The notes below the pieces were generated by a model. The model ran no database searches. It saw only the letters and a list, made by a program, of their open reading frames with translations, and was not told the DNA's origin. Made by a program: the position numbers and the translations under genes. This document shows positions 9,668 through 33,699 of a stretch of 33,699 nucleotides of DNA, one piece after another. Source of the DNA: Limnochorda sp. LNt (GTDB lineage: Bacteria > Bacillota > Limnochordia > Limnochordales > Geochordaceae); NCBI RefSeq assembly GCF_035593265.1, contig NZ_CP141614.1, forward strand, positions 2,985,641 to 3,019,339. The letters run 5' to 3'. Within the stretch, counting starts at the first letter, position 1; each line of letters starts with the position of its first letter.

Positions 9668-9686
9668 GGACGGCTCCCCCTCGCCC

Positions 9687-11003: not shown

Positions 11004-11005
11004 CG

Positions 11006-12091: not shown

Positions 12092-12104
12092 CCTCCTCGG
12101 TGGC

Positions 12105-12134: not shown

Positions 12135-12297
12135 TGGGATACGCGGACCCGGCTGCTTTGGATGGAGCGGACCGTGCGGAGCGAGATCGAGCAGGCAAGG
12201 CGGGCCGGGCGTCGAAGAGACCGACCGGTCAGTCTTTACATCTCGTCGGAGCGGCCCGCACCCGAGGGCCGCAAGACGGGGCAACGCGGGAGGGGCC

Positions 12298-16560: not shown

Positions 16561-16566
16561 AGCCGC

Positions 16567-17385: not shown

Positions 17386-17470
17386 GCCGGCCGTCACGGG
17401 GGCGGCTGGGGCTGTCGGCGGGGCGGCCGTCGCCGTCACGGATGAGGGCGGGGGCGGCGCTCGCCCGACG

Positions 17471-18352
17471 GTGAGCCGGCCCAGGGCGTGGCTGATGGCG
17501 GCACGCATCCCACGCTGCCGGCGGCCATCGCGCCGGTCCTGGCGGGCGCGGGGCCGCGGCCGCGCAGGGGCCGCTGCGGGCGGCGTCCTGGCCGCCACCC
17601 TGGCCGCGGCGCTGCTCATCCAGATTGGCACCAACCTGGCCAACGACCTCTACGACTTCCGGCGGGGGGCCGACCGGCCCGGCCGGATGGGGCCGGTGCG
17701 GGTGACGCAGGCGGGCCTGCTGACGGAGCGGGACGTGGCGAGGGGCATGGTCGCGGTCTTCGGGGCGGCGGTGCTGGCCGGGCTCTACCTGGCCGTGGTG
17801 GGCGGGTGGCCCATCGTGGCGGTGGGGCTCGCCTCCATCGCGGCGGGCATCCTCTACACCGGCGGGCCGTGGCCGCTGGGCTACCACGGTCTGGGCGACC
17901 TCTTCGTCTTCGTCTTCTTCGGCGTGGTGGCCGTGACGGGGACCTACTACCTGCAGACCGGGGCCGTGACGCTCGGGGCGCTGCTGGTCTCGGTGCCGGT
18001 GGGGCTGCTGGTGACCGACATCCTGGTGGTCAACAACCTGCGCGACATCGAACAGGACCGTCGGGCCGGCAAGCGCACACTGGCCGTGCGGATCGGGGAG
18101 CGCGCCACGCAGATCCAGTACGCGGCCCTCGTGGCGGGGGCCTTCGTGATGCCCCTCGTGCTGCGTCTGGCGGGGGAGGCGGGCGCGCTCTTCTGGCTGC
18201 CGTGGCTGAGCGCCCCTCTGGCGTGGCGGCTGGTGCGCCGGGTACTGGGGGGCGAGCGCGGCCCGGGCCTCAACGAGGTGCTCAAGGGCACGGGGCGGCT
18301 GCTGCTGGCCTACAGCATGCTGCTGGCCGTAGCGCTGGCGTGGTGGCCGTGA
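17471..18352 (+). CDS. menA: DHNA polyprenyltransferase MenA, with internal double frameshift
   Basis: This UbiA-family membrane prenyltransferase attaches the isoprenoid chain to 1,4-dihydroxy-2-naphthoate. It starts at GTG 17471 (poor ribosome site) and has 293 aa. The Asp-rich motifs are [14 protein letters not shown] (about 57-70) and [19 protein letters not shown] (about 188-206), with [11 protein letters not shown] between them. Residues about 12-32 read as an Arg-rich string, whereas the +1-shifted frame over the same bases reads [16 protein letters not shown], the family's first membrane segment. A one-base loss near 17503-17510 and a one-base gain near 17555-17590 would explain this. 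As written, the first helix is destroyed, so either the gene is damaged or the sequence has two indel errors. It overlaps menE by GTGA. Confidence 0.85.
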
Positions 18353-19920
18353 GGCTGGCCGACTGGCTGGCCCGCCGGGCGGCCAGCGACGGGCCGAGGC
18401 TCGCGGTCGTGGCGGGCGACGCGAGGTGGAGCTTCGCCGAGCTGGACCGGCGGGCGAGCGCCACGGCGCGGCGGCTGGTGGCCCTCGGCGTGCGGCCCGG
18501 GGACCGCGTGGCGCTGCTGTTGCCCAACGGGCCCGAGTGGGCGGAGCTCGTCTTTGGGGTGGGGCGGGCCGGCGGGGTCCTGGTGCCGCTCAACGTGCGC
18601 CTGGCCCCGGCCGAGCTGGCGTGGCAGGTCGGGCAGGTGGCGCCGCGGCTGCTGCTCCACTCGTCCGCCACGGAGCGGCTAGCGCGAAGCGCCCTGGAGG
18701 CCGTGCCCGGGGCCGGGCGCGATGCGAGTGCGGGAGCCGACGGGAGCGACGGGGCCTCCCGGAAAGTCCCGGGCGTGCAGGCCGTCATGGCACTGTCGGT
18801 AGAGGAGCTGGCGACGGTCCCGGAGGGGCCCGGCACGGGGGAGCCGCGGCCCGTCGCCCTGGAGGAGCCGCACAGCATCCTCTTCACGTCGGGCACCACC
18901 GGCAGGCCCAAGGCCGTCGTGCTGACGTACGGCAACCTGTGGTGGAGCGCGGTGGGCTCCGCCCTCAACCTGGGCGTCCACCGCGACGACCGGTGGCTGG
19001 CCAACCTGCCGCTGTTTCACGTGGGGGGCCTCTCCATCCTGGTGCGCAGCGTCATCTACGGGACGGCGGCGGTGGTGCACGAGAGATTCGACCCCGAGGC
19101 GGCCAACCGGGCGGTGGACGAGGAGGGCGTCACGCTGCTGTCGCTGGTGGCGACGACCCTGGCACGCATGCTGGAGGCGAGGGGGGAGCGGCGCTTCCCA
19201 CCGTCGCTTCGGACAGCGCTCGTGGGCGGGGGCCCTACCCCGCCCGTGCTGCTGGAGCGCGCCCGGCGTCTTGGCATGCCCGTCGCCCCGACCTACGGCC
19301 TGACGGAGGCGGCCTCGCAGGTGACGACACTGGCCCCTTGGGAGGCCGCGCGCAAGCCGGGCTCGTCCGGGCGTCCTTTGCTGCCGACGGAGGTGCGCAT
19401 CGATCGGGACGGGCGGCCGGCGGCGCCGGGGGAGATCGGGGAGATCCTGGTGCGGGGGCCCACCGTCAGCCCGGGCTGGCTGGCGGGCCCCCAGGGCCCG
19501 CTGTCGCCGCTGGTCGACGCGGACGGCTGGCTGCACACGGGCGACCTGGGCCATCTCGACGACGAGGGCTACCTTTACGTGGTGGACCGCCGCGACGACC
19601 TGATCGTCAGCGGCGGCGAGAACGTCTACCCCGCGGAGGTGGAGGCGGCGCTCTTGAGCCACCCCGCGGTGGAGGAGGCGGGCGTGGTGGGCGTGCCGGA
19701 TCCGCTTTGGGGGCAGGTGCCGGTGGCGATGGTGCGGCTCAAGCCGGGCCAGGACGTCTCCCCCGAGGCGCTCGTCGCGCACTGCGAGGCGCGCCTGGCC
19801 CGTTACAAGCGGCCCCGGGTCGTGAGGATCGTGGAGGAGCCCCTCCCCCGCAACGCGGCCGGCAAGCTGCAGCGCCATCGCCTCCGGGAGCGGTGGGACG
19901 TCCTGCGGACGGCCGGGTAG
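18349..19920 (+). CDS. menE: o-Succinylbenzoate-CoA ligase MenE
   Basis: This adenylate-forming enzyme activates o-succinylbenzoate to its CoA ester. It has 523 aa and starts at GTG 18349, inside the menA stop (GTGA). Motifs are the P-loop [19 protein letters not shown] (about 180-198), [13 protein letters not shown] (about 312-324), [15 protein letters not shown] (about 394-408), [21 protein letters not shown] (about 412-432) and the C-terminal catalytic Lys in [11 protein letters not shown] (about 504). The order men F-D-H-B-A-E supports MenE over a general acyl-CoA ligase. menC, which makes its substrate, is not in the window. Confidence 0.92.
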
Positions 19921-19991
19921 GGGCTGGGGCTCGAGGGCCGGGGCTCAGGGATCGGGGATCGGCAACAGCGGCCGGCGCGCATCCGGCAGGG

Positions 19992-20006
19992 CGGGGCACC
20001 GCCCCG
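19992..20006 (+). terminator. Short hairpin after the men operon
   Basis: CGGGGC (19992-19997) and GCCCCG (20001-20006) form a 6-bp stem with loop ACC, between menE and ddh. There is no T-run. It is a weak candidate for an attenuator or terminator, and it lies directly before an in-frame ATG (20007) that I do not use as the ddh start. Confidence 0.3.
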
Positions 20007-20057
20007 ATGGAACCATGCTCGTCGCCTGAGGTCGCACGCGCACGGGAGGCGAACGCA

Positions 20058-20957
20058 TTGGCGACACGTCTTCGGGCAGCCGTCATCGGCTACGGCAACG
20101 TGGGGCGCTACGCCGTCGAGGCGGTGCAGGAGGCGCCGGACCTGGAGCTGGCTGGCATCGTGCGCCGCGATCCGTCGGACCGGGCCGGCATCGACCCGTC
20201 CGTGGCGGTGGTGGGGCACGTCTCGGAGCTGGGGCGGGTGGACGTGGCGCTTCTGTGCGTGCCGACCCGCCAGGTGCCCGAGGTGGCCCAGCGGTACCTG
20301 GCGGCGGGCATCAACACCGTCGACTCCTACGACATCCACGGGGAGCTCGTCGATCTGCGCCGGCGCCTGGACCCGGTCGCCCGCGAGCACGGGGCGGTGG
20401 CCATCGTCTCGGCAGGCTGGGATCCGGGCACCGACTCCATGGTGCGGGCCATGCTGGAGTTCATGGCGCCGCGGGGGATCACCTACACCGACTTCGGCCC
20501 CGGGATGAGCATGGGCCACTCGGTGGCGGTGCGGGCCATCCCGGGTGTGCGCGACGCCATGTCGCTGACGGTGCCCGTCGGGCAGGGCGTGCACCGCCGC
20601 CTGGTCTACGTGGAGCTGGAGCCGGGGGCGGACCTGGAGGTCGTCACCCGGCGCATCCTGGAGGACCCCTACTTCCAGCACGACGAGACCCGGGTCATCC
20701 CGGTGCCGTCCGTCGAGGACGTGGTGGACATGGGCCACGGCGTGCGCATGGAGCGCAAGGGCGTCTCGGGGCGCACGCACAACCAGCGGTTCTTGTTCGA
20801 CATGCGGATCAACAACCCGGCGCTGACCGCACAGGTGATGGTGGCCGCGGCCCGGGCGACCTTTCGCCAGCGGCCGGGGGCGTACACCATGCTCGAGGTG
20901 CCTGTCATCGACTACCTGCCGGGGGACCGGGAGGCACTGCTGCGGCGGCTGATGTGA
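20058..20957 (+). CDS. ddh: meso-Diaminopimelate D-dehydrogenase
   Basis: This NADPH-dependent enzyme interconverts tetrahydrodipicolinate plus ammonia and meso-diaminopimelate in one step, serving lysine and peptidoglycan synthesis in the cytoplasm. The start is TTG 20058, with GGGAGG 8 bases upstream, giving 299 aa beginning [20 protein letters not shown]. An ATG at 20007 would add 17 unrelated residues. The Rossmann motif GYGNVGR is at 11-17. Further family marks are [19 protein letters not shown] (about 118-128), [12 protein letters not shown] and [12 protein letters not shown]. It follows menE by 137 bp on the same strand and may be cotranscribed, although a small hairpin lies between. 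Symbiobacterium-type DAPDH is the closest family I know. Confidence 0.92.
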
Positions 20958-20979
20958 GGGCGGGGAAGGACGGGTCGGC

Positions 20980-22200
20980 GTGAGCCGCGACGACACCGGG
21001 CGATGGGTCCCGGCAGCCGCGCTCCGGCGCCTCGTGCTCGCCCAAAGCGGCCTGTTGCGATGGAGCCGGGGGCAAGGCCGGCGCGGACGTCACGCCGAGG
21101 GCGCCCCGTGGCGAGAGCAGCTACGCGGCGAGGACGGCGTGCACCAAGCGGTGCGCCGCCTCGAGGCGGTCCAGCTCGATCCCGTCGCCATCGTCGAGCG
21201 CAACCATCACCTCGTGCTCCGAAACCGCGTGGCCACCTATCGTCCCGAGCACCTGGAGGCCCTGTACCGCCGCAAGCTCGTCTTCGAGTACTGGGCCAAC
21301 GCCCGCTGCATCCTTCCCATCGAGGACTACCCGCTCTTCCAACCCATCCGCGAGAGATTGAGGGCCAGGCGACCCGAGCAGGAGCCCGTGCTGGAGGCGG
21401 CCATGCGCCACGTCCGGGAGCGCCTCGCAGCCGAAGGCCCGCTCCCGGCCCGGCGCCTCGAATCCGGGGACCGGGTGCCCGGCTACTGGGATCTGGATGC
21501 TGCGAAGACCAAGGCCACCTCGCAGGCGCTGGAGCATCTGTGGGAGACGGGCGAGGTGGTGGTGGCCTACCGGCCGGGAGACCAACGTCACTTCGCCCTG
21601 GCCGCCGAGTGGTTGGGACAGGTGGAGGGCGTGGATTCCTGGGAGCCCCTGCTGCACAAGTACCTGAGGGCGTACGGGGTGGCCCACACCGGTGACCTCC
21701 GGTTCGGCTGGCGCAGCTGGCCGGCCGCTGAGCGCAAGCAGGCGGCCGAACGCCTGGTGGCGCAGGGGACCCTGACGGCGGTGCGCGTCGAGGGCGTGCG
21801 GCGCACCTACTACGTGCTCTCGGAGCTCGTACCCCTGATGGCGGCACTCGCCGACGCGACCGTGGCACCCGACGTGTACCTGCTACCACCTCTCGACAAC
21901 GTGCTGTGGAGCCGGGAGCGCGTGGCCGACCTGTTCGGCTTTCACTACACCTGGGAGATCTACCTCCCACCAGCCAAGCGCCGCTCCGGCCCTTACACCA
22001 TGCCGGTGCTCGAGGGGGACCGCTTCATCGGGCGGCTCGACGCCAGGCTCGACCGAGGCCAAGGGGTGCTGCGGGTCCAGCGCCTGACCTTCGAGCCCGA
22101 TGTAGAACCCTCGCCAGAGCGGCGGGCGCGGGTCTGGTCGGGCGTGGAGGCCCTCGCCGAAGACCTCGGGGCCACTCGCGTCGATGGGCCGATGCCATGA
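20980..22200 (+). CDS. YcaQ/AlkX-like winged-helix DNA glycosylase family protein
   Basis: This 406-aa member of the HTH_42 (DUF1006) family is related to E. coli YcaQ, a DNA interstrand-crosslink glycosylase, and Streptomyces AlkZ. GTG 20980 has AAGGA 9 bases upstream. The QxD active-site motif appears as VQLDPVAIVERNHH (64-77). Typical distal motifs are YWANARCILPIEDY, PDVYLLPPLDNVLWSRERV, DLFGFHYTWEIYLPPAKR and GPYTMPVLEGDRFIGRLD. The role in unhooking crosslinks or alkylated bases is inferred from the family. It lies 22 bp after ddh. Its stop overlaps by ATGA the start of a truncated ABC ATPase stub. Confidence 0.88.
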   Translation: MSRDDTGRWVPAAALRRLVLAQSGLLRWSRGQGRRGRHAEGAPWREQLRGEDGVHQAVRRLEAVQLDPVAIVERNHHLVLRNRVATYRPEHLEALYRRKLVFEYWANARCILPIEDYPLFQPIRERLRARRPEQEPVLEAAMRHVRERLAAEGPLPARRLESGDRVPGYWDLDAAKTKATSQALEHLWETGEVVVAYRPGDQRHFALAAEWLGQVEGVDSWEPLLHKYLRAYGVAHTGDLRFGWRSWPAAERKQAAERLVAQGTLTAVRVEGVRRTYYVLSELVPLMAALADATVAPDVYLLPPLDNVLWSRERVADLFGFHYTWEIYLPPAKRRSGPYTMPVLEGDRFIGRLDARLDRGQGVLRVQRLTFEPDVEPSPERRARVWSGVEALAEDLGATRVDGPMP

Positions 22201-22287
22201 TGACAGCCGCAGCGGTTGACGCGGACTCGGCGGTGCGTCGCTTCGGGCCGGTCGTGGCCCTCGACCACCTGACGCTGGCGCCGTGCT
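22197..22287 (+). pseudogene. 5' stub of an ABC transporter ATP-binding gene
   Basis: Beginning at ATG 22197 (ATGA overlap with the YcaQ-like stop), the frame reads MMTAAAVDADSAVRRFGPVV and continues ALDHLTLAP. This is a standard ABC-ATPase N-terminus (rrFGpvvALdhltl). The homology stops abruptly near 22285, before any Walker A motif. The following bases belong to the leader of the nucleotidyltransferase gene. The stub indicates a deletion or insertion junction in what was a coupled two-gene unit. The frame stays open to 23075 only as a shadow of the next gene. Confidence 0.55.
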
Positions 22288-22330
22288 CCTGTCCGTGGCG
22301 AAAAGGGGAGGACAGAGGAGGCGAACCCCG

Positions 22331-23224
22331 ATGCGACCCTATCGCTGGCCCGACTGCCCCGCCTCCGTGCACGAGGCCGTCGACGGTTTCGTCACGCTCG
22401 TGCGCGGCCTCTCCGGCGCGTCTCTGGTGGGAGTCTACCTGCACGGATCCCTGGCCATGGGCGGTTTCAACCCAGGCCGCAGCGACCTCGACCTGCTGGT
22501 CGTCACCCGGAGCGATCCCGGCGCGACCTTCCGACGGGCGTTGGCAGCGTGGCTGCTCCAACACTCGGGGCACCCGTATCCCTTCGAGGTCCACGTGCTG
22601 CAGATGGAAGACCTGCATCCCTGGCGCCACCCCGCCCCGTTCGCCTTCCACTACAGTGAGGCCTGGCGCCAGCCCACGCGGGACGCAGTCGCCCGGCTGC
22701 AGGATCCCCGGGAACTCATGCCAGCGACAGATCCGGACCTGGCCGCACACGTCACCGTGTTGCGTGCCCGCGGCGTCTGCCTCTGCGGTCAGCCCATCGA
22801 TGAGGTCTTCCCCCAGGTGCCGCCGGAGGACTATCGGGACGGTCTGCTCCGGGACGTCTCCGACGCTCGGAGTACGGTCCACCTCGACCCCGTCTCGACC
22901 GTCCTCAACCTGTGCCGGGTCGGACAATACCTCGAGGATGGAGTCATCGCCAGCAAGGCGGAGGCGGGAGCGTGGGCAGCCATGGCCCTTCCCGCAGCCC
23001 ACCGTTCGGTCGCGGCTTGGGCTCTGGCGGCCTATCGGGGCGACGCCGCATCAAAGCAGGCGCCGTCCGAGGTAAGGCTGGCCGCCTTCGTCCACTACAT
23101 GATGGGGCGGCTCGGCCTGTCCTCCACCAGGCTTGACGAGAATCTGGCAAGAGGGAGGGAGAGGAAGATGCCCCACAGCCGCCGCTCCGCCACAACCAGG
23201 CGCCCGAAGCCGAGGACGTACTGA
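22331..23224 (+). CDS. Aminoglycoside nucleotidyltransferase-like protein
   Basis: This 297-residue protein has a nucleotidyltransferase (Pol beta-like) fold N-terminus and a DUF4111-type helical C-terminus, the AadA/ANT(9) arrangement. ATG 22331 follows GAGGAGG by 9 bases. The NTP-binding signature GVYLHGSLAMGGFNPGRSDLDLLVV (34-58) contains GS (39-40) and the metal-binding SDLD (51-54). FEVHVLQMEDL and LDPVSTVLNLCRVGQYLEDG followed by ASKAEAGAWA match the C-terminal substrate domain. It may adenylylate aminoglycosides such as spectinomycin or streptomycin; resistance is inferred only. Its last about 130 bp overlap the convergent NlpC/P60 gene, and the Arg/Lys-rich tail looks non-native. Confidence 0.82.
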   Translation: MRPYRWPDCPASVHEAVDGFVTLVRGLSGASLVGVYLHGSLAMGGFNPGRSDLDLLVVTRSDPGATFRRALAAWLLQHSGHPYPFEVHVLQMEDLHPWRHPAPFAFHYSEAWRQPTRDAVARLQDPRELMPATDPDLAAHVTVLRARGVCLCGQPIDEVFPQVPPEDYRDGLLRDVSDARSTVHLDPVSTVLNLCRVGQYLEDGVIASKAEAGAWAAMALPAAHRSVAAWALAAYRGDAASKQAPSEVRLAAFVHYMMGRLGLSSTRLDENLARGRERKMPHSRRSATTRRPKPRTY

Positions 23225-23715
23225 CCCCGCTTGCTCCCGCCAAGGGGCCAGACGTCGGAGACGACCTGCCGATGATAGCTGCTGGCGTTGACGAACCAAA
23301 CGTGGCCGGCTTCGACCCGCTCGACGAGGCCGCCGTGCGTCGCGATGGCCCCGCCCTCCTCGGCGATGGCGACGATGTCGCCGGGCCAGGCCTCGGCGGG
23401 CGACAGTCGGATGGCGTGGTGGGTGAAGATCTCGTGCATGGTCGCATCCGATACGACCCGCCCGTCTGGCCGCCTGAGGCGCAGCGTACCCAGGGCCTGT
23501 GCGTAGGCCCATAGGATGAGCCCTGAGCAGTCGAAGCCCCCGGGCGCCTGCCCACCCCACTCGTAGGGGTCGCCAATGCGAGAGCGGGCCGCCTCGAGCG
23601 CGCGCCACGCCTCCGGCGCGGACACGGCTCGGGTCGCCGTCCACGTGCAACCCGAGGTCGTCGTCGCCAGCCACGCCAGGGACGTCAACAGGAGGGCCCG
23701 TCTGCCGAACCGCAC
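23095..23715 (-). CDS. NlpC/P60 family lipoprotein (putative peptidoglycan hydrolase)
   Basis: This secreted cysteine peptidase-like protein probably cleaves peptidoglycan stem peptides. The start is GTG 23715, with AGAGGAG 5 bases upstream (206 aa); a GTG at 23730 lies upstream of that ribosome site. Residues 1-22 are a lipoprotein signal ending in the lipobox TTSGC, with Cys23 lipidated. The catalytic Cys63 is in GGFDCSGLILWAYAQ, His127 in ATHGGLVERV, and a polar third residue, perhaps Asn143, in FVNASS. WPGDIVAI is the usual strand before the His. The C-terminal 43 or so codons overlap the convergent nucleotidyltransferase gene and look unlike the family, so one of the two 3' ends may be frameshifted. 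Confidence 0.85.
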   Translation of the reverse strand: MRFGRRALLLTSLAWLATTTSGCTWTATRAVSAPEAWRALEAARSRIGDPYEWGGQAPGGFDCSGLILWAYAQALGTLRLRRPDGRVVSDATMHEIFTHHAIRLSPAEAWPGDIVAIAEEGGAIATHGGLVERVEAGHVWFVNASSYHRQVVSDVWPLGGSKRGQYVLGFGRLVVAERRLWGIFLSLPLARFSSSLVEDRPSRPIM

Positions 23716-23880
23716 GGAAGCTCCTCTCACCGAGTCGGTAGCGCCACGTCGCTTCTACGCCGTCGCGGCAGCTCGTCGCCCGAGTTGTTCGCTGCCGAGG
23801 CCGACATGTACTGCCAGGACGAAATCCGCCGCAGGACCATCCGAGCCCCGCCTGGAACATGCTGCCTCGGCGGGAGGGAC

Positions 23881-24872
23881 ATGGCGGTGCAAATACCGCT
23901 GGGAAGGACGGGCATCGAGGTCAGCGCCCTGGGGATCGGCACCTGGGCGTGGGGCGAGCGTTTGTGGGGATACGGGTCCAGCTATTCGGATCCGGACCTG
24001 CAAGAGGCCTTCCGGGTGGCGCTGGCGGAGGGCATCACGCTGTTCGACACGGCCGAGATCTACGGATGGGGCCGTTCGGAGCAGCTGCTGGGGCGCTTCA
24101 TCGCGGAGAGCGGCGCGACGGCCTCCGGAGATCCGGCAACCAGTGATGCCCCTCGACCCAGGGTCGTTGTGGCGACCAAGTTCATGCCGTACCCGTGGAG
24201 ACTCACCCGGGCGAGCTTGCTACGGGCGCTGCGCCGAAGCCTCCAGCGGCTGGGACTGCAGCAAGTCGACCTCTACCAGGTGCACTGGCCGTTCCCGCCA
24301 GTGCCCGCCGACGCGTGGATGGACCATGGCCGACGCGGTGCAGGCTGGGCTGGTGCGGGCCGTCGGCGTCTCCAACTACGGCGCCACTCGGATGCGGCGG
24401 GCCTACGAGGCCCTCGCTCGGCGCGGTGTCGTGCTGGCCTCCAACCAGGTGGAGTACAGCCTGCTGCACCGCAAGCCTGAGCGTAACGGCGTGCTGGCGG
24501 CATGCCGGGAGCTGGGGGTCACCCTCATCGCCTACAGCCCTCTGGCCATGGGGGTGCTCACGGGGAAGTACGGGCCCGACCGGCCACCCGCGGACTTTCG
24601 GCGAGGGCGCTACGGCAGGGCGTTTTGGGCCAAGGCGGAGCCGCTGCTGACCACCCTCCGCGCGATTGCGGAAGCGCGCGGCAAGACGCCGGCGCAGGTG
24701 GCCCTCAACGGTGATCTGCAAGGGCGCCATCCCCATCCCGGGGGCCAAGAACGCCCGCCAGGCTCGCGAAAACGCCGGCGCCCTGGGATGGCGTCTCACG
24801 GACGAGGAAGTGGCGGCCCTGGATGCAGCCGCCGGGGCTGTGGATGGCGTCGGGCCAGCCCCTGCGCCTTGA
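23881..24872 (+). pseudogene. Aldo/keto reductase, split by two frameshifts
   Basis: An NADPH-dependent aldo/keto reductase (TIM barrel) gene is spread over three frames. Frame one (from ATG 23881, GGGAGG just upstream) covers residues 1-148 with the catalytic set Asp56 and Tyr61 (FDTAEIYGWG), Lys100 (VVATKFMP) and His135 (LYQVHWPF). Near 24322-24325 it passes to a second frame (ADAVQAGLVRAVGVSNYG ... [10 protein letters not shown]). Near 24709-24712 it passes to a third ([20 protein letters not shown] ... to TGA 24872). At both junctions a loss of two bases restores the expected family sequence (WMD-A-MADAV and ALN-W-VICKG). It is either a young pseudogene or carries two assembly indels. The substrate is unknown. 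Confidence 0.85.
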
Positions 24873-25026
24873 TGAGGGGTTACCGTGACAGGACATGCAC
24901 GGCACCCGTCGAACGGGGTAGACGGGCCCGGGTCAGGGGCGGTACATTGCTTACCTGTGATGACGACACGCTGATGACGGGTCGTTGTCAAGGGTAACTC
25001 CCAGCAAGAGGCGGAGAGACCGATCC

Positions 25027-25890
25027 GTGGCACGGGTTGTCAGCCGTCCTGGGAACGACAGTTTGTTTGCTCTCCCTGAAGACACCAAGCCCAGGCCCCC
25101 TGTGAAATGGGCAGGAGGCAAAGGAGGGCTCATCCCGCAGTTCGAACCGCTGTTTCCCACAAAGCCTTGGGATCTGTATGTGGAACCGTTTGTGGGGGGC
25201 GGCGCGGTCTTCTTCCACCTGTTGCCCCGTCGCGCTGTGCTCGTCGACAACAACGAGGAGCTCATCAACTTCTACAGGGTGGTCCGGGACAACCTGGAGG
25301 AGCTCCTCGTGGATTTGCGGAAGCATGAGAACACCGCCGAGTACTACTATCGCATACGGGCCCTGAAGCCCGAGGAACTGACGCCCGTGGAGCGTGCCTC
25401 CCGCTTCCTTTACCTCAACAAGACCGGCTACAACGGGCTGTGGCGCGTCAACGGCAAGGGCCAGCACAACGTGCCGTTCGGCCGGTACAAGAATCCGAAG
25501 ATAGTGGACGAACCGAATCTACGCCAAGTGAGCAGAGCCCTGGCTCAGGCGGAGATCATCCTGGGGGACTTCAGCCTAGTCCTCGACTACGCCCGGCCCG
25601 GCACCTTCGTTTACCTGGATCCCCCTTATCACCCCCTGTCGGAGACAGCGCGGTTTACCAGCTACACCCGGGAGGGCTTCGACGAAAACGATCAGAGACG
25701 CCTGGCTGACGTGTTCCGACAGCTCGACCGGATGGGCTGTCTGGTCATGTTGAGCAACTCGGACACCCCCTTCATTCGGGACCTGTACGCTACGTACGAC
25801 ATCCAGGTCGTCTACGCCAAGCGTGCCATCAATTGCCGCGGCGACGGGCGAGGCCCCATCACGGAGCTGGTAATCCGCAACTACGCGTGA
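25027..25890 (+). CDS. Dam-type DNA adenine N6-methyltransferase
   Basis: This site-specific DNA methyltransferase (D12 class) transfers a methyl group from S-adenosylmethionine to adenine. I use GTG 25027 (287 aa), which has GGCGGAG upstream; TTG 24985 is in frame but lacks a ribosome site. Motifs are the N-terminal PPVKWAGGKGGLIPQ (25-39), SAM-binding YVEPFVGGGAVFFH (51-64), VLVDNNEELINFY, YLNKTGYNGLWRVN, catalytic VYLDPPYHP (196-204), FTSYTREGF and VMLSNSDTPF. GC is lower than in the core genes. It lies 14 bp upstream of a small nuclease-like gene, which suggests a restriction-modification unit. GATC is the usual Dam-family target, but specificity is unproven here. Confidence 0.92.
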   Translation: MARVVSRPGNDSLFALPEDTKPRPPVKWAGGKGGLIPQFEPLFPTKPWDLYVEPFVGGGAVFFHLLPRRAVLVDNNEELINFYRVVRDNLEELLVDLRKHENTAEYYYRIRALKPEELTPVERASRFLYLNKTGYNGLWRVNGKGQHNVPFGRYKNPKIVDEPNLRQVSRALAQAEIILGDFSLVLDYARPGTFVYLDPPYHPLSETARFTSYTREGFDENDQRRLADVFRQLDRMGCLVMLSNSDTPFIRDLYATYDIQVVYAKRAINCRGDGRGPITELVIRNYA

Positions 25891-25904
25891 CGGGAGGTGC
25901 GTAG

Positions 25905-26339
25905 TTGTCCCCCGGCGGTAGAAACACTCGGTCCGGCCGCATTTGGGAGACGGTCATACGGCCCGTTCTCGACGCGCATTACGCCGGCAGATATGGAGAG
26001 CAAGTCGCCGTGGGGTTGAAGCTTACGGGCGAGCCATATCTGGCCGACTTCGTCGTCTACGAGCCTTCGGGCGATATCATCGTAAGCGCGAAATGGCAGC
26101 AGACGCCGGGTACTGCAGAGGACAAGATCCTCTGGGACATCGCCAACTTGATCGCAATCGTGCGGCAGTCTGGCCAATACCGCAAAGCCTACGTCGTGCT
26201 CGGGGGCAACGGGTTTTCGAACGCGATGCGGACCTTCCTCTTGCAACAAGGACACCGCGGGGTCCTTCAGGACGGCCACTTGGTCGAGGTGGTTTCGCTG
26301 GAGGACTTCCTCGCCCGAGCCAATCAGGGGCGGGTGTGA
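25905..26339 (+). CDS. Small PD-(D/E)XK superfamily nuclease, probable restriction partner
   Basis: This 144-residue protein starts at TTG 25905 with GGGAGG 7 bases upstream. The core YLADFVVYEPSGDIIVSAKW followed by QQTPGTAEDKILWDIANL resembles PD-(D/E)XK nucleases: Asp48, then a strand ending in Lys63, with Ser61 where Asp or Glu is usual. The KWQQ-x-GTAE-K run is typical of small nucleases found beside Dam-like methylases. The likely role is the endonuclease of a type II restriction-modification pair with the upstream methyltransferase. Fold and role are inferences from short motifs. It ends 40 bp from the tRNA remnant. Confidence 0.65.
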   Translation: MSPGGRNTRSGRIWETVIRPVLDAHYAGRYGEQVAVGLKLTGEPYLADFVVYEPSGDIIVSAKWQQTPGTAEDKILWDIANLIAIVRQSGQYRKAYVVLGGNGFSNAMRTFLLQQGHRGVLQDGHLVEVVSLEDFLARANQGRV

Positions 26340-26378: not shown

Positions 26379-26423
26379 TGGTGGCCCCGAGAGGACTCGA
26401 ACCTCCGACACGCGGTTTAGGAA
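26379..26423 (-). tRNA. 3' half of tRNA-Arg(CCT), att-site remnant
   Basis: Read on the minus strand, the sequence gives an exact tRNA 3' half. Loop TTCCTAA carries anticodon CCT, and 3' stem ACCGC and variable loop GTGTC follow. Then come T-arm GGAGG-TTCGAGT-CCTCT, acceptor strand CGGGGCC, discriminator A and encoded CCA. Upstream of the anticodon loop (26424 onward) the partner stem GCGGT, the D-arm and the 5' acceptor GGCCCCG are absent. Integrative elements leave such a 3' half at the end distal to the regenerated tRNA, so the element should extend rightward from 26424. It is not a functional tRNA. Confidence 0.8.
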
Positions 26424-26788
26424 GCGCATCAGCACGACAGAATCAGGGTTTACGCTAGCGCGGACCACCTCACTACGCCAACAACGTCACTCAGCAGGTT
26501 GCCTGCCAAAGCCGCATGATGACGCTGCTAGAGACGGTTCGGCTACTTTCAAGCGCGCCACTGACTAGCGAACTGCGGGGCCTTTGCCTTGGTCGGGAGG
26601 AGGTTGGGAGGCAGAAAACCACTGACATGGCGCGGTTTGTGCCTGCCGATTTGACGGAAGATGAAAGTTGCGTCGAACCCCTAGACTCAACCCCTTAACC
26701 CTGTTACGCTGGTATCGGCCACGGAGAGCCGTCATATCTCCGGCGCGGTGGCTGGTCGGGCGTCCGGGGCCTGCCAGACCGCTAGAGT
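26424..26788. other. Gene-free stretch next to the att remnant
   Basis: These 365 bases carry no frame I can support on either strand. They have lower GC than the core genome, several stop-rich segments and small inverted repeats such as GCAGG-TTG-CCTGC near 26497-26509. By position they would be the att arm region of the integrated element. I see no integrase gene here. Confidence 0.5.
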
Positions 26789-26830
26789 AGCCCACCGCCC
26801 ACGGCGAAAGCCGGCACAGGGTGGTGGGCT
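26789..26830 (+). promoter_or_regulatory. Nested hairpin leader or attenuator upstream of the HTH gene
   Basis: A 12-bp stem (AGCCCACCGCCC at 26789-26800 with GGGTGGTGGGCT at 26819-26830, one G-U pair) encloses a second hairpin, CGGC-GAAA-GCCG (26802-26813), capped by a GNRA tetraloop. It is followed at once by TTTGCTTGTT, an interrupted T-tract. The ribosome site GGGAGGTGG and GTG start of the HTH gene lie about 10 and 26 bases later. It could be an intrinsic terminator, an attenuator or a protein-binding RNA element. Confidence 0.6.
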
Positions 26831-26856
26831 TTGCTTGTTGGGAGGTGGCACCCGCT

Positions 26857-27037
26857 GTGGAATTCCTGACCATAAGCGAAACAGCACACTTTCTCGGGAT
26901 CGACCGCAGCACCGCCTACCTCAAGGTCAAGCAGAAGCAGATACCCGTCATTCCGCTGCCGTCCAACTGGCGTTGAACAGCTCGTAGCGACAATTCAAGG
27001 TGACAAAGAGCGACATGACGGGATCTATAAGGGCTGA
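26857..27037 (+). pseudogene. Excisionase-like HTH protein, frameshifted
   Basis: From GTG 26857 (GGGAGGTGG 8 bases upstream) the frame reads VEFLTISETAHFLGIDRSTA and continues YLKVKQKQIPVIPLPSNWR, a MerR-like/excisionase helix-turn-helix of the HTH_17 type. It then hits TGA 26974-26976 after 39 codons. Restoring two bases at 26971-26973 continues it as V-EQLVATIQGDKERHDGIYKG to TGA 27035-27037, giving a normal end for this family. Such proteins direct excision or regulate element genes. It lies at the start of the integrated element, behind a structured leader, and ends 2 bp before the insertion sequence. Confidence 0.65.
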
Positions 27038-27039
27038 GG

Positions 27040-28754
27040 TGGACAAAGCGGTTGTATCTACGCCGTTTTTCGGGTGGGCGTCACAATCTTCAGGTAGTGG
27101 GGCGGTCGGTCGACCTTCAGGGCCTGAAACAGCGCCTTCTGCTCTTCGGTGAGGGGGCGGACCTGCCAGACCTCGCCGTGGGCGGTGGCGTGGCGGCCCA
27201 CGTCGATGGGGGCGACCAGATCCCGCATCTGTCGCCAGGTCTGGCCCGTCTCGTTCTCGGCCACCCGGATCATGAGGAGGGCCAGCCAGCACAGCAGCAC
27301 GTGGGACCGGATGCGGTCGTCGAGCCGGTGGTACATCGGCCGGACGTCGACCGTGTGCTTCAGGTCCCGGTGCACCCGTTCCACCTGCCAGAGTTGCTTG
27401 TAGCCGTAGACCAGGTCTTCGGCGGGCAAAAAGTCGTCGGAGCTGCTGATCACAAACTTCCCGTCGAGGGCGGCTTCTCGGCGAACCTTGGCCGCGTCGA
27501 TGACCAGTCGCGCGCCCCCGCGTCTGGCGCAGGTAGCGGCCGAAGGTCTCGTGGGCCCGCAGCTCGCAGGCTGCCTTGGTATGCGCCTCGCCCTGCTTCT
27601 GTTTGAGCGCTTCGAGCCGCTGGCGAAGCTCGGCCAGGATGGACTCCCGCTTCTGGCGGTCCCGCTCGGCCTCCTCGGGGTTGCGGACGATGACGAAGCG
27701 CCGGCGGGCGGCGCTATCCCCTCCGACCACGACCTCCTTGATCTCCAGCCCGTCGGGAAGCCTGCGGTACTTGCCGCCCCGGCGCAGCGCCTCCGCGGGC
27801 ACCCCCTGGGGGCCCACCCGCAACTTCTCCCCGATGATGTAGTGATCGCCGGCGCCCTGCAGGATGCGGCGGTTCGCCTCGGAGTTGAAGCCCGTGTCCA
27901 ACACCACGACCACCCGGTTGAGCTTCCAGCCGTTGAGATCCCGTTTGACCTCGGCCACGACGTTCTGGTCGCCGGTGTTGCCGGGCCAGACCCAGCAGCG
28001 GACCGGGATGCCGTCCCGGGTCACGGCCAAGCCGATGACCACCTGGGCCATCTTCGGATGATCATCGGCGCTGTGCCCCCAGCGGCGCAACCCGTCGGCG
28101 TCCTCGCCCTCAATTTCGAAGTACGCCGTCGTCGTATCGAAGAAGATGACGTCCACTTCGAGGTTGAAGAGGTTGGCCAGCGTCCAGAAGACCTCGCGCT
28201 GGATCGCCTCGGCAGCCTCCAGCAGAAAGTCCATGGCCCGGTAGAGCTGGTGGACTTCCACCGCGGGCAGCTGGTCGATGTAGACGTCCTGCGCCACCCA
28301 CTTCTCGATGGCCAGCTTGCTGGACGGCGCCAGGGCCCGGTTGGCCACCATGGCGAAGAGGAGCCGCTCGATGGGGGTCTGGTAGTGGCACGCTTCGAGC
28401 AGGCGCTGCAAGGTCTTCTGGATGCCCAGCCGCCGCCACAGCCCGTCCAGAAGCCACGTCCCGCCCAGCTTCAGGGAGCCCAGGTACCGAAAGGGCCACT
28501 CCATGCCGAGATCCTTCTGCAGTTGGGCCTGCTCGTCGGGGGCAGGAACCGGGCGATGCTGCGCACCAGGCGGCGCAGCGCGTCCAGGTCGAGCTGGTCG
28601 ACCCGGCCGAAGGTGTACAGCACCTGGGCCCGGGGCTGTCCAGTCTTGGGGTCCCGGACGTTATGGGCAAGCTGGGCGTATTGGATGCCCTTGGAAGTGA
28701 CGGTGCGCACGTACATCGTGCCTACATCGTAACTCGTTTACCACGCTGTGTCAA
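27040..28754 (-). mobile_element. IS1634-like insertion sequence
   Basis: The element is about 1.7 kb. Imperfect terminal inverted repeats are TGGACAAAGCG inward from 27040 and TTGACACAGCG inward from 28754 (9 of 11 match), followed by related but gapped bases. The only gene is a minus-strand DDE transposase that fills it. No clear target duplication was found. It inserted between the HTH gene and the first phage-like gene, and its right end lies about 54 bp before that gene's first ATG. Confidence 0.65.
27058..28716 (-). pseudogene. IS1634-family transposase with two frameshifts
   Basis: The transposase is readable in three pieces. Piece one (from ATG 28716) runs YVRTVTSKGIQYAQLAHNVR to RSIARFLPP. 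At the G-run 28538-28542 (plus strand) one base appears missing, after which piece two continues DEQAQLQKDLGMEWPFRYLG. Piece two holds two catalytic Asp regions, FFDTTTAYFE and LDTGFNSEANRRIL. At the C-run 27515-27519 one base is extra, after which piece three continues GARLVIDAAKVRREAALDGK and includes the Glu region LWQVERVHRDLKHTVDVRP. It ends at TAG 27058. Both shifts sit in 5-base homopolymers, so programmed slippage, decay or assembly error are all possible. The fold is RNase H-like DDE. Confidence 0.85.
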
Positions 28755-28770
28755 TAGCTACATCTTTTGT

Positions 28771-28806
28771 GGTTGTGTCTACGCGCATCCGCGTTTTTCT
28801 ACGGGG
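28771..28806. repeat. Partial second copy of an IS 3'-end sequence
   Basis: GGTTGTGTCTACGC followed by CGTTTTTC and GGG in this stretch matches, with a short insertion, the segment 27050-27074 inside the insertion sequence (GGTTGTATCTACGCC, then GTTTTTCGGG), which covers the transposase's last codons and stop. It lies just outside the right terminal repeat, in the same orientation. It looks like the leftover end of a related element, or of a tandem insertion or recombination event. Confidence 0.4.
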
Positions 28807-28807
28807 A

Positions 28808-29248
28808 ATGGCCCGCAAACCCGCTTCGCACCGTGCGGGTGGGGGCGGGTTGTGGCCACTTACTGTACAACGCCAGTCCAAAGGACCTCGGTACCCCAAG
28901 TACGGTGTGCTGAAGGACTGGCTCGGGCAGCAGATCCAGGACGGCAAGGCGATGGCCCCCAATCTCCTCGGCGTTCTCCCCAGGTTCGTTGAGGGGCTGA
29001 CAGGGCTGTCCTGGGGAAGCATCTACACGGTGCTCCTCTTGTGGACCAACGGCTGTCTCCCCTACTTGACGGAGGATGGCCGACTCCGGGTTGTCGGCCC
29101 ACCGCACCAGGCGAGGCTTGTTGCCTTCTATGAGGAGGTCCTGAACCGCCCCAGCGTGGCCGAGGACATGCGGAAGACCCTTCAGGCCGTCTCCGAGCGG
29201 TTTCCCACCTACCAGCAGCTATTCGCCAAGGCGAAGGGGGCAAGCTAA
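28808..29248 (+). CDS. Unknown phage-like protein, possibly 5'-truncated
   Basis: From ATG 28808 the protein has 146 residues. The part after about residue 33 (YPKYGVLKDWLGQQIQDG, LTGLSWGSIYTVLLLWTNG, EDMRKTLQAVSERFPTYQQL) looks globular and mostly helical, with one moderately hydrophobic stretch. The first 30 residues are Gly/Arg-rich and no convincing ribosome site precedes ATG 28808. The insertion sequence and IS debris lie immediately upstream, so the true N-terminus may have been cut off. The stop TAA abuts the next gene's ATG (TAAATG), indicating one transcription unit. I do not recognise the family. Confidence 0.6.
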   Translation: MARKPASHRAGGGGLWPLTVQRQSKGPRYPKYGVLKDWLGQQIQDGKAMAPNLLGVLPRFVEGLTGLSWGSIYTVLLLWTNGCLPYLTEDGRLRVVGPPHQARLVAFYEEVLNRPSVAEDMRKTLQAVSERFPTYQQLFAKAKGAS

Positions 29249-31453
29249 ATGGGCGCGGGTGGTGCGGCAGTCGCCGGAAGCGTGGGGAACGCGCTGGCGA
29301 ACTTTCTCAACCTACAACAGCAGCGGGCGCTCATGCAGGGGCGACAATCGGGTGTGGCAGGGGAAGGCACACCGCCCATTACGCCCGGAACGGGCGCGGC
29401 CTTTGAGGCCGTGGCACGGATCCTGGGCCTTCCTATCCCAGAGGGCGGGATGCCTGACTTCCCTGTGGCATGGGGTTCGCCTCTCATCAGTGCCGGGGCG
29501 TCACTTCTGCGGGCCGGTGCAACGCCGCCGGCGACCGGCGATGGGGGAGACACAGCAACTGGCGTAACGGGAGGGATGCTTGATCTCCTAAGCCGGTGGA
29601 TCGCTGGTGAGCAGGTCGACATTTCTCAGCTCCAGGGGATCTCGCCGGGTCTTGCGACCGAGGCGATACGCCAGCGAGGAACACCGAGGGCAGTCGGCCA
29701 GCCTGCCTCGCCGTCTGGTGTGACGATGGATACGCTTCAGACGCTCATCGAGTTTGTTCGGAGCGGCGGCACAGCTCCTTTGGCCGGCGAGGGGTTGATC
29801 CCCACCTCCGTTGCGACCGACGTGCTCCAGCGGGTGACCGGAGAGCCACCTGTGATGGCGCAGACCACGCCCGAGCAGCAACAGCGCCTCGGGCTACCTG
29901 AGCGCGTGCCGTGGGAAGTGCGGCAGCAAGCCGAAAGCATCATTCCCACGCCACCACCCGAATCGGATCTCTTGGGCTACCCCGACGAGTTGGTTCCTAT
30001 CATCCCCAGCCTGGCAGGACGGAAGGGAACCATCGACGATATTAAGAAGGCGACAGACCTCGCACTAAACTTGGTGAGTCTCGGGGCTAAACGGAGTGAA
30101 CAGGAACGGGTCGCCAGGGAGACGGCTGTCAAGTTCGCCGAATGGGAAGGGCGCTTTGTTGACCCGGTGGAACTGGAGGCGTTCCTGAAGGAAAACTACC
30201 CGAACGCACGCTTTTTCATCCCGAAGCCGCTAGAGGTTGGCCCTTACGCAGGCAAGATCGACTTCGAGGCATTTAAGACCCAAAACCAGGCGCTTGCGGA
30301 AATTGCCCGCACTGCCGCTGAAACAGGATTGATAAACACCCGCATCCGGGGTGAAGAGTTGCAAAACCAGCTTCGGCAGCTCGACATTGATACCTACATG
30401 CCTCGCTTCAACGCCGAAATGGATCGCATGGCCGCGGCCACAGGGCTTGACCGAGTTCGGGCCAGGGAAATCGAAACGCTTTTGCCGACACGCCTGGCGC
30501 TATCACAAGCCGAACTGAAAGAGTTACAACAGCGAATCGAGCAGGGCGAAAAGCTTGGGCCGCTCATGCTGGAAAAGTACCGGACGGATATTGAGCGGGC
30601 AAAGCAGGAGGGCCGGATCAGCAAGGCCGAGGCTGACTACCTGGAGCGGGTTGCCACTTTTCGGGCGGGGCTGATGGAGGTTGAGTTTCAGCGCGCACAG
30701 GCAGAGATGGATCCGGTCAATCTCCAACTTTGGTGGGCGATGCTCGGCTTGCCGGGCGATCCTCCTGCCGGGCTGAAGCTCAGGAACTTTCAGGTTGACC
30801 GGTTCCTTGATGCTGTCCGGGCAAGACGCGGGACTGTCGTTAAGGCGAAAACGCTGTTTCAGGCAGCGGGTATCGACACGAAGGACCTCCCCAAAGAGGT
30901 ACTGGAAGCCGACGTACAAATCGACAGCGCCGGTGAGCTTGCAAGCACGCTTGACCGGCTCTCCGGCATACGGCTTGCCCCCATCGAAACGTCCCTCGAC
31001 CTGCTGGCCGCACTGATTACGGCCTACACACCATCCACAACCGACGACCTGCTCCTCCTCTTGTTCACGAAGGATAATCCCAACCTGGCGGCGCAGGTGA
31101 TGGGGTCGAGGGTTGACCGGCTTCCACCCGATATTCAGGCGCTGGCACGGTCGCTTCTGGAGTTCGCCACCGGAGAATTGCAGGGCGCGATCCCGAACCT
31201 GAAGCTGCCCCAGCAAAAACCGCCGACTGCGGCGTCGAACCCACCGGCTGCAAGGCAACAGCCGTCCGCCGAGCGAAACGACGCTAACTGGTCCGAAGTA
31301 GACGCCCTGGAGATCCTGGACCGCTTCGGTGGCAACGTGGAGAAGGCCGTATCGTGGGCGCGAACCGAGCTTCCGAAGCAAGGCTGGACGCAGGAGCAGG
31401 TCAGCCAGGTGATCGAGGCCATTCGGCGACTCGGTGAGAAGGGCGGGAAGTAA
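29249..31453 (+). CDS. Unknown 734-residue phage-like structural protein
   Basis: Starts at ATG 29249, directly at the preceding TAA. The N-terminal 240 residues are rich in Gly, Ala, Pro and Thr (low complexity, including a GNALANFLNLQQQRALMQG helix). The middle (about 330-490) is long charged helix, probably coiled coil, for example LSQAELKELQQRIEQGEKLG and ERAKQEGRISKAEADYLERV. A Pro/Gln-rich linker leads to a small C-terminal domain (VDALEILDRFGGNVEKAVSW to the end) that resembles a UBA-like three-helix bundle. No enzyme motif is seen. Size, helical content and the giant gene that follows suggest a virion or injected protein. The function is unassigned. Codon use is less GC-extreme than in the host genes. 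Confidence 0.75.
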   Translation: MGAGGAAVAGSVGNALANFLNLQQQRALMQGRQSGVAGEGTPPITPGTGAAFEAVARILGLPIPEGGMPDFPVAWGSPLISAGASLLRAGATPPATGDGGDTATGVTGGMLDLLSRWIAGEQVDISQLQGISPGLATEAIRQRGTPRAVGQPASPSGVTMDTLQTLIEFVRSGGTAPLAGEGLIPTSVATDVLQRVTGEPPVMAQTTPEQQQRLGLPERVPWEVRQQAESIIPTPPPESDLLGYPDELVPIIPSLAGRKGTIDDIKKATDLALNLVSLGAKRSEQERVARETAVKFAEWEGRFVDPVELEAFLKENYPNARFFIPKPLEVGPYAGKIDFEAFKTQNQALAEIARTAAETGLINTRIRGEELQNQLRQLDIDTYMPRFNAEMDRMAAATGLDRVRAREIETLLPTRLALSQAELKELQQRIEQGEKLGPLMLEKYRTDIERAKQEGRISKAEADYLERVATFRAGLMEVEFQRAQAEMDPVNLQLWWAMLGLPGDPPAGLKLRNFQVDRFLDAVRARRGTVVKAKTLFQAAGIDTKDLPKEVLEADVQIDSAGELASTLDRLSGIRLAPIETSLDLLAALITAYTPSTTDDLLLLLFTKDNPNLAAQVMGSRVDRLPPDIQALARSLLEFATGELQGAIPNLKLPQQKPPTAASNPPAARQQPSAERNDANWSEVDALEILDRFGGNVEKAVSWARTELPKQGWTQEQVSQVIEAIRRLGEKGGK

Positions 31454-31454
31454 C

Positions 31455-33699
31455 ATGGCAAAGGTGCCACCGAAGCCCATTCTGCCTCCTAAGGAAGAGC
31501 AGGACACCCCGCCACCCCGACCGATCCTCCCAGGGACGACCGGCGAGGCTCCGCCCCCGCCGCCACGCCTGGCGGAGCCTACGGTGGAACTGACTGTGGC
31601 CATGCTTCAGGACCGCCCTGCTGCCACAGCGGTGCAGGGCGAGGGGTGGTTTAACCGGCTTTTCGACCTCCTGGCTCGAACAAGTTACGCCGGAGCCAAC
31701 GCCCTACAAGCCATCGTGCAGGGCCGGTTGGCGGACGTGCCGGAGGCATACCGCAAGGGGCTTACCGGCGAGGTGAAAGGGGCAGGCCGGGATGTGGCCG
31801 CTGCCCTGGGGCTGTCTACAGAAGGCCCGACGCTTCAGATTCCCGGCCTGACTCAGACCACCTTCTCATTGGTGCCTTACGCACCAGCAGGCCCCAACCC
31901 GTGGCTCCCCCAGCCGCCTGCGCCACCGGCTACGGAACAAGCGGGCCTGCCTGTGGAGGTCTCGCCTGCCGGTGCGGTCGGGCTTGCGATCGACCTCCTG
32001 AATCCCTTCGACCCGCTGAACTGGGGCCTTCAGGTCGGCAAGCTGGGCCGGGCGGGGCGAATTGCGGAGGCAATTACGTCTGCTGAGCAGGCGGGCATTC
32101 TTGAAGCTGGAAGCAAGCTGGCCCGACAGGCCGAGGCCCTGCAAGCGGCGGGGCGCTCGACGGAATTGGGGCGGACGGTGGCTGAACAGGCCGCCCGACG
32201 GCAGCGCAACATCCTCAACGTCACGCTGCCAGGCCTAGGAGCCGTGGGGCCGTCCGACCTTCCTGGGGCTGCCGGGCGGCTGGCGGCCCGAGTGCAGGAG
32301 CCGTTTTTCCGGTTGCTGGACACGGGACGTGAGTGGCTGCTGTCGCAGAGGCCGATCCAGGACCTGATCGGGCTTGTCTCCACCGCCCCCCTCACTCCTG
32401 CTAAGAAGGCCGAACGCATCCTGCAGGAACGAGACAGGGTTGCCCGTTACCTAGTCTGGAAGGCCCAACTGGAGAAAAAGCAGCTTTCCGACGAAATCGC
32501 CGACCTTGCGGAACAGCTTGGGGTGGAGCAGGACGCTATCAAGAAACAAATCACCGAGGCAGCACAACGCATTCAGGCGACAGAGGGACTTCAGCCAGAG
32601 GTTGCCGAAATCGCCCGGCGCGTTCAGACTCGGCAACCTGAGCGGCTGAGAGCCGAACAGGCTCTTGGAGTGCCCACGCCCGAGTTTCAGTCCCAGCGTA
32701 TTCGCTACCTACACCGCGAACCGACCGAGGAGTTTCGGGCCTGGCTCGACCAGCAGCGCAGCCAACGACAGCCCTTTGGCCGCCGGGGCGACGTGTCGCT
32801 GCTGGCAGGGCCACAGGTGGGCAGAGTTATTGAACCCGAGGCGACCATCGCCGAAATCAACAAGGCCGCCCTCGAAGGGCGCACAGCCTGGGCACCTACA
32901 GGGAGTTGGACGACCTACACCATACGGCAGGGCGATACCCTGAGCGAAATCGCCCAAAAGACGGGCACCACCGTTGAGGAACTGGCGAAGCGCAACGGAA
33001 TCGAAAACCCCGACGTTCTCCGGGTCGGGCAGCGCATTGAAGTGCCGGAGATGGGGATTCGCATTACGAAGGAGCCACAAGCCAATCCGGCGCTGCCCAA
33101 GATACCCATCTTCACGGAGGACCCTGCTGTTATCGAGCTTGCGAGGGAGATCGACTTCATCCGCACTACCACCAGCGCCGAGGCACTGGACCGCGTTATC
33201 CAACGAGGGCTGGAGGAGGGGTGGGTCGTCGAGGCCCCGAAGGGGCGGGAATTGCCGCCGGGCTGGCAGCGCGTTGACCTGCCCCGCTTTGCGGGCAAGC
33301 TTGAAGGGTATGCCTTTCCTAGCGACGCGGCCGACGTGCTGAAAGCCTACATGCGAAAATGGGAAGACACGGAGGGGCGCAACGCGCTCCTACGGGCGAT
33401 GGGAGCCTTCAACAACTGGTGGCGCAACCAGACGCTTTTCCCTATCCCGGCTTACCACGCCCGCAACTTCCTTACGGGACTGTGGAAGAACTACCTTGCT
33501 GATATGAACCCGCTCACTTACCGCGACGGGATTGTTTTTGCGGAAATCCGGGGCGGATTATCCCAGCCGGAAAGCCTACGCTTTGTCGCTGCCAACGGCA
33601 AGGTGTGGACGGGAGCCGAAGTGCTGGACGAATACATGAAGCAGGGCCTGGGGACTGGCTTCATGGAGCAGTTTGACCAGCGATTCGCTACAAGCAGTT
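31455..33699 (+). CDS. Giant phage polyvalent-type protein with LysM domain, 5' part
   Basis: The frame opens at ATG 31455, one base after the preceding stop (TAACATG), and stays open to the window end, giving at least 748 residues. The N-terminus is Pro-rich (PPKPILPPKEEQDTPPPRP). Long Ala/Gln/Glu-rich helices follow. A clear LysM domain lies at about 488-532 (TYTIRQGDTLSEIAQKTGTT, then VLRVGQRIEVPE), which binds glycan such as peptidoglycan. Further on, NNWWRNQTLFPIPAYHARNF then LTGLWKNYLADMNP resembles the LPD38-type segment of large polyvalent proteins, which phages are thought to inject with their DNA. The LysM could anchor to the cell wall during entry. The C-terminal modules lie outside the window. 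Confidence 0.8.
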   Translation, partial: MAKVPPKPILPPKEEQDTPPPRPILPGTTGEAPPPPPRLAEPTVELTVAMLQDRPAATAVQGEGWFNRLFDLLARTSYAGANALQAIVQGRLADVPEAYRKGLTGEVKGAGRDVAAALGLSTEGPTLQIPGLTQTTFSLVPYAPAGPNPWLPQPPAPPATEQAGLPVEVSPAGAVGLAIDLLNPFDPLNWGLQVGKLGRAGRIAEAITSAEQAGILEAGSKLARQAEALQAAGRSTELGRTVAEQAARRQRNILNVTLPGLGAVGPSDLPGAAGRLAARVQEPFFRLLDTGREWLLSQRPIQDLIGLVSTAPLTPAKKAERILQERDRVARYLVWKAQLEKKQLSDEIADLAEQLGVEQDAIKKQITEAAQRIQATEGLQPEVAEIARRVQTRQPERLRAEQALGVPTPEFQSQRIRYLHREPTEEFRAWLDQQRSQRQPFGRRGDVSLLAGPQVGRVIEPEATIAEINKAALEGRTAWAPTGSWTTYTIRQGDTLSEIAQKTGTTVEELAKRNGIENPDVLRVGQRIEVPEMGIRITKEPQANPALPKIPIFTEDPAVIELAREIDFIRTTTSAEALDRVIQRGLEEGWVVEAPKGRELPPGWQRVDLPRFAGKLEGYAFPSDAADVLKAYMRKWEDTEGRNALLRAMGAFNNWWRNQTLFPIPAYHARNFLTGLWKNYLADMNPLTYRDGIVFAEIRGGLSQPESLRFVAANGKVWTGAEVLDEYMKQGLGTGFMEQFDQRFATSS

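Follow-up and report, generated by a model that had tools for sequence, protein, structure and literature searches.

A predicted GATC restriction-modification pair of a Dam-family methylase and a 144-residue PDDEXK_11 nuclease in Limnochorda sp. LNt

Results

A methylase-nuclease gene pair of low GC content

The stretch of DNA analysed here, called the window below, comprises the final 33.7 kb (33,699 nucleotides) of the single-contig, 3.02-Mb genome of Limnochorda sp. LNt. Two intact genes on its forward strand, separated by 14 bp, encode a Dam-family methyltransferase and a small nuclease, and part of a tRNA gene lies beyond them:

25027..25890, + strand: Dam-family (D12 class) adenine-N6 DNA methyltransferase gene; 287 aa from a GTG start; predicted specificity GATC
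25892..25899, + strand: GGGAGGTG, 5 nt upstream of the TTG start of the nuclease gene and probably its ribosome-binding site
25905..26339, + strand: gene for a 144-aa PD-(D/E)XK nuclease of PF20472 (PDDEXK_11); TTG start; predicted GATC restriction endonuclease
26379..26423, - strand: 3' half of tRNA-Arg(CCT), a 45-bp exact repeat; att copy that bounds a neighbouring integrated element, outside the Dam-nuclease pair

An alternative in-frame TTG is present at 24985, upstream of the GTG start of the Dam gene. The GC content is 0.608 for the Dam gene and 0.611 for the nuclease gene, compared to 0.725 for positions 5000-24900 of the window, and 39 bp separate the end of the pair from the att copy. 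A first-pass annotation of this DNA had reported the 14-bp spacing, the reduced GC content and a distance of about 40 bp from an att remnant, and all three were confirmed. The low GC content suggests that the pair was acquired, but not that it was acquired via tRNA-Arg(CCT) in particular. At positions 23860-24870, similarity to aldo/keto reductases is spread over several frames, corresponding to either a pseudogene or sequencing errors.

The 45 bp at 26379-26423 are an exact match to C1:9249-9293, where an intact tRNA-Arg(CCT) gene has these bases as its 3' half. The two repeats bound a phage-like element of about 16.6 kb that extends from window positions 26424-33699 into C1:1-9293, running across the point at which the chromosome is linearised. 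Next to the tRNA it encodes a tyrosine phage integrase (L036:7785-9071), and L036:1840-3762 is the gene of a Prim-Pol/AAA replication protein. The element also contains, at window positions 26948-28716, transposase-like ORFs on the reverse strand in more than one frame with a weak match to DDE_Tnp_1, probably a broken insertion sequence.

The Dam-nuclease pair is located outside this element, on its chromosomal side. The first-pass annotation had proposed an earlier insertion at the same tRNA as the source of the pair, which would make the pair leftover cargo of a previous element that used the tRNA-Arg site. The GC content (0.61 against 0.725 for the core), the 39-bp distance to the att copy and a solitary Dam gene located about 12 kb from tRNA-Arg(CCT) in the sister genus are consistent with such an origin. 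However, the genome has two att copies only, with no third copy detected, and we noticed no integrase among the ORFs of 22-26.4 kb on the side of the pair. The left flank of the pair is not syntenic with the sister genus at the tRNA loci of relatives, and hence no empty site was found. Furthermore, a tRNA is contained in just 4 of 50 loci from relatives. Because the pair lies outside the two att copies, few relatives are close to a tRNA and an empty site was not found, the proposal did not find support, and we consider this origin unlikely. The same 4 of 50 count led us to reject tRNA association as a trait of the family.

The nuclease belongs to PF20472 and is predicted to have a PD-(D/E)XK fold

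The 144-aa protein matches PF20472 (PDDEXK_11) over its full length (profile positions 3-143 of 145) with an E value of 7e-20 and a score of 71.7 bits against a cut-off of 23.7. This was the sole Pfam match at E values up to 1. No model in PADLOC or NCBIfam matched the nuclease and a sequence search of the PDB gave no credible relative. Scans of viral and genome collections with the single sequence returned no relatives, and an alignment was needed as the query. A structural model was generated with AlphaFold from a 68-sequence alignment (mean pLDDT 89.3, pTM 0.85). Its core consists of a helix (residues 9-26), three strands (30-38, 44-51 and 57-64), a second helix (71-89) and a fourth strand (92-100), an alpha-beta-beta-beta-alpha-beta arrangement that we confidently assign, on the basis of the model, as a PD-(D/E)XK core. 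In structure comparisons the model aligned with BstEII (Z 9.6), BsoBI (8.1), BamHI (7.7), EcoT38I (7.6) and BglII (7.1), as well as with Can2 (up to 8.8), and many nucleases were among the top rows; these Z values are middling and indicate the fold rather than the specificity. The structure prediction that the first-pass annotation had put forward as a check therefore returned the PD-(D/E)XK fold, and together with the PF20472 membership it bears out the description of the protein as PD-(D/E)XK-like.

We found no paper dedicated to PDDEXK_11 and, in the literature, no characterised family member and no description of the Dam-nuclease pair; REBASE was outside the scope of this search, so a prior prediction or characterisation may be present there. 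In the records examined, members are labelled 'PD-(D/E)XK nuclease superfamily' or 'hypothetical protein'.

The methylase is predicted to modify GATC

The window Dam scores 299.6 bits against TIGR00571 (cut-off 114.85), matches PF02086 with an E value of 5.8e-65, and has DpnM as its best solved relative (2dpm, E 2.7e-73), in agreement with its earlier annotation as a Dam-like methylase. It has the family profile, the DPPY motif and the GATC-reading residues that identify D12 enzymes. In E. coli Dam, K9, L122, R124 and P134 read GATC and Y119 intercalates (PMC10073500). We aligned the window Dam with the Dams of the nuclease loci, DpnM and E. coli Dam (n = 87). The equivalents of K9, L122, R124 and P134 are invariant in all 87 proteins, and position 119 is Tyr or Phe throughout, with Tyr in the window Dam. 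Because these residues are conserved, the adenine of GATC is the predicted target.

A second Dam, 78% identical to that in the window, is encoded at C1:16169-16975 (L036) and does not have a PDDEXK_11 neighbour. Its gene is found about 7 kb past the intact tRNA-Arg, directly upstream of a probable ECF sigma factor gene. A cell with this further Dam could probably survive losing the pair. The sister genus, too, has a Dam that stands alone (about 85% identity to that of the window), whereas Dams of Desulfofundulus and Desulfovirgula (about 82% identical) have the nuclease adjoining; a single Dam lineage therefore occurs both alone and paired. The first-pass annotation would have counted consistent absence of the nuclease beside homologous methylases against a functional unit. 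The outcome was mixed, since the nuclease is absent at the closest solitary Dams (the sister genus and the second Dam) and present at the Desulfofundulus and Desulfovirgula Dams.

The nuclease is kept beside DNA methyltransferases

Across 398 genomes of the phylum, PF20472 was detected in 21 genomes at 22 loci, and in none of the sister genus. A D12 methylase adjoins the nuclease at 21 of these 22 loci, that of the window included; the exception is L025. A wider search with an alignment query, using one genome per species, provided the best 80 of 111 loci, to which four viral loci were added. The taxa include Bacillota, Chloroflexi, Acidobacteria, Cyanobacteria, Bacteroidota, Proteobacteria and archaea such as Ferroplasma. 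Two of these 84 loci are cut by a contig edge; among the other 82 (from the best 80 of 111 and the four viral loci), 75 have an adjacent DNA methyltransferase, which is a D12 Dam in 62 cases, a member of the PF01555 class (two types) in 10 and a member of the PF05869 Dam class in three. Distances between nucleases and between Dams are correlated (r 0.76 over 66 adjacent pairs; highest value in 999 permutations 0.25), in part a reflection of shared organism phylogeny. The gene order of the window pair was also observed for an Alicyclobacillus plasmid and for cyanophages.

Cyanophage S-RIM50 encodes a Dam and a PDDEXK_11 protein with an SLK motif (L004:2018-3339), and similar nuclease matches occur in 30 cyanophage records, where their annotation goes no further than 'hypothetical protein'. 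In Chloroflexi-type genomes (Anaerolineae, Ardenticatenia, Thermoflexus), a PF01555 methylase of about 535 aa with a possible N-terminal zinc finger and HTH region takes the place of Dam beside an SxK nuclease (L050:3257-4867, L051, L053-L055).

The first-pass annotation had suggested a minimal restriction-modification unit. Because the nuclease family adjoins DNA methyltransferases across bacteria and archaea, the data support this suggestion: an adjacent methyltransferase and nuclease that are kept together, one mark of a Type II system, are what is found. Counting against it are the seven of 82 loci at which no adjacent methyltransferase was recognisable, the second solitary Dam, which is predicted to cover GATC in this genome already, and a depletion of GATC that is mild and uninformative (observed/expected 0.79 in 71.8 kb of the genome), with CATG and GTAC behaving alike.

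The association of Dam with a small single-domain PD-(D/E)XK protein would also be expected for a MutH-like enzyme that acts with Dam in nicking or repair at unmethylated or hemimethylated GATC, and a cyanophage neighbour is annotated as 'methyl-directed repair DNA adenine methylase'. Vertical inheritance is expected of a housekeeping repair enzyme, however, whereas the nuclease has a patchy, mobile distribution (21 of 398 genomes and none in the sister genus; a plasmid, phages, archaea) and pairs with unrelated classes of methyltransferase. A repair role is therefore most improbable. A methylation-dependent, DpnI-like nuclease was rejected, since it would attack the DNA marked by the neighbouring Dam.

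Ser61 replaces the second acid and Glu72 is a candidate substitute

The codons of the putative active site are located as follows:

25947..25949, + strand: Glu15 codon; N-terminal helix; near-invariant across the family
26046..26048, + strand: Asp48 codon, D of the PD half-motif; second strand (model); invariant in alignments A1 and A2
26085..26093, + strand: Ser61-Ala62-Lys63 codons, SxK replacing (D/E)xK; third strand
26118..26120, + strand: Glu72 codon, proposed relocated catalytic carboxylate; beginning of the helix that follows (modelled as residues 71-89)

The window nuclease has D48 and K63 and carries Ser61 in the position of the second acid, making Glu72 a candidate substitute. That Ser-Ala-Lys stands in for (D/E)xK had been pointed out before and is correct (S61-A62-K63). 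The accompanying suggestion that the catalytic residues are unusual stands in so far as the SxK motif is real, but the motif is not peculiar to this protein. Of 97 aligned members, 88 have Ser at position 61, eight have Glu and one has Val. Lys63, Gln65, Gly69 and Lys74 are invariant in this alignment, and position 48 is Asp in 92 of the 97. Glu72, nine residues after Lys63 and on the next helix, accompanies Ser61 in 88 of 88 cases. The members with Glu61 have Asp, Tyr or Glu at position 72, and further viral ExK members mostly have Asp72. The patterns used in the wider search left position 61 free, but one of the two included position 72; the phylum survey is therefore the fairer sample for Glu72, and in that survey every SxK copy carries it. 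The sole Val61 member, from a Photobacterium plasmid (L003:3863-4276), has a V-A-K motif and Ile72; it lacks an adjacent methylase and is flanked by a reverse-transcriptase gene on one side and a type I-F CRISPR locus on the other.

It is accepted that restriction enzymes vary through migration of side chains in the active site (PMC1189080). CCGG-family enzymes take their second acid from the helix that follows the lysine strand; most have K-X12-13-E spacing, and the residues of BsaWI, K165 and D175, lie ten positions apart (PMC4652773). By analogy with Cfr10I, NgoMIV and BsaWI, Glu72 is probably placed to supply a relocated carboxylate. A point against this assignment is that most ExK members are also acidic (Asp) at position 72, and for this reason Glu72 may have another role.

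A Ser at position 61 could instead mark a decayed remnant, inactive for want of the second acid of (D/E)xK. Decay does happen in the family: two relatives of the SAK branch (L019 and L020) have an in-frame stop in the nuclease gene and an open Dam frame, as would be expected if restriction is lost before modification. In the window, however, both frames and the ribosome-binding site are intact, and the occurrence of Ser61 in 88 of 97 members from several phyla, with E15, D48, K63 and E72 kept, is hard to reconcile with loss of function. We regard decay as very unlikely.

Discussion

We consider it highly likely that the Dam and the nuclease together form a compact Type II restriction-modification system directed at GATC or a GATC-containing site, with a metal site that includes Glu72. 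The family assignments, the fold and the conservation of both the pairing and the GATC-reading residues were computed; to these we add, by inference, cleavage activity, a recognition sequence, a dimer and a role for Glu72. The Dam-family enzyme would methylate the adenine of host GATC sites, and the PDDEXK_11 nuclease, probably as a dimer, would cut incoming DNA that is unmethylated at GATC or at a longer site containing it. The metal site would consist of Glu15, Asp48, Lys63 and Glu72, the last of which lies on the helix that follows the third strand and would stand in for the missing second acid of (D/E)xK.

Within this restriction-modification model, the Dam side fixes only methylation of the GATC adenine, and the nuclease could read a longer sequence such as RGATCY or GGATCC that is protected by the broader GATC methylase; a methylase that prefers GGATCC to other GATC contexts has been described (PMC10734518). 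But the family pairs with many Dams and with other methyltransferase classes, which would be simplest if the shared site were GATC itself, and a longer site is thus rather improbable.

We regard the locus as one unremarkable representative of a Type II restriction-modification family that is widespread yet functionally undescribed; the predicted specificity is GATC, and the active site probably uses a relocated carboxylate. More tentatively, and with slightly less than even confidence, we propose that PDDEXK_11 is a large family of restriction enzymes for GATC, ranking with the smallest known, and that it has several unrelated methyltransferase partners and draws its second acid from either the strand (ExK) or the next helix (SxK with Glu72). 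If so, relocation of an active-site residue could be traced stepwise within one family, for which the natural ExK and SxK forms would provide a clean test of catalytic residue movement. A widespread nuclease family would gain a predicted function and a likely recognition site, and very small GATC cutters from thermophiles might be useful as reagents.

Among known systems, the pair resembles the DpnII restriction-modification system of Streptococcus pneumoniae in having a Dam-type GATC methylase beside a restriction gene, and DpnM is the best solved relative that the window Dam has. It differs in that the nuclease matches PF20472 only, with no match to the DpnII family in Pfam at E values up to 1, and in that just one methylase gene was seen in the window pair; a DpnII-family restriction enzyme, which characterises DpnII-type systems, is not what the locus encodes. 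Within PF20472, of which the window protein is a full-length member above the cut-off, the strongest Pfam matches in the phylum survey are ECK forms (L006-L009), whereas the window protein falls in the SxK branch. The CCGG-family enzymes Cfr10I, Bse634I, NgoMIV and BsaWI likewise take the second acid from the helix after the lysine strand, as proposed here for Glu72. That family is defined by PDX21-53KX12-13E spacing and an R-(D/E)R recognition motif (PMC4652773), whereas the window nuclease is much smaller, has D48-X14-K63-X8-E72 (K-X8-E rather than K-X12-13-E), shows by eye no R-(D/E)R motif in the segment from K63 to the helix, and is predicted to recognise GATC instead of CCGG, which places it outside the family. 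The Dam and PDDEXK_11 pairs of cyanophages such as S-RIM50 are phage-borne, and the S-RIM50 nuclease is 41% identical across half of the protein, yet they share with the window pair the gene order, an SxK motif (SLK) and the Glu at position 72.
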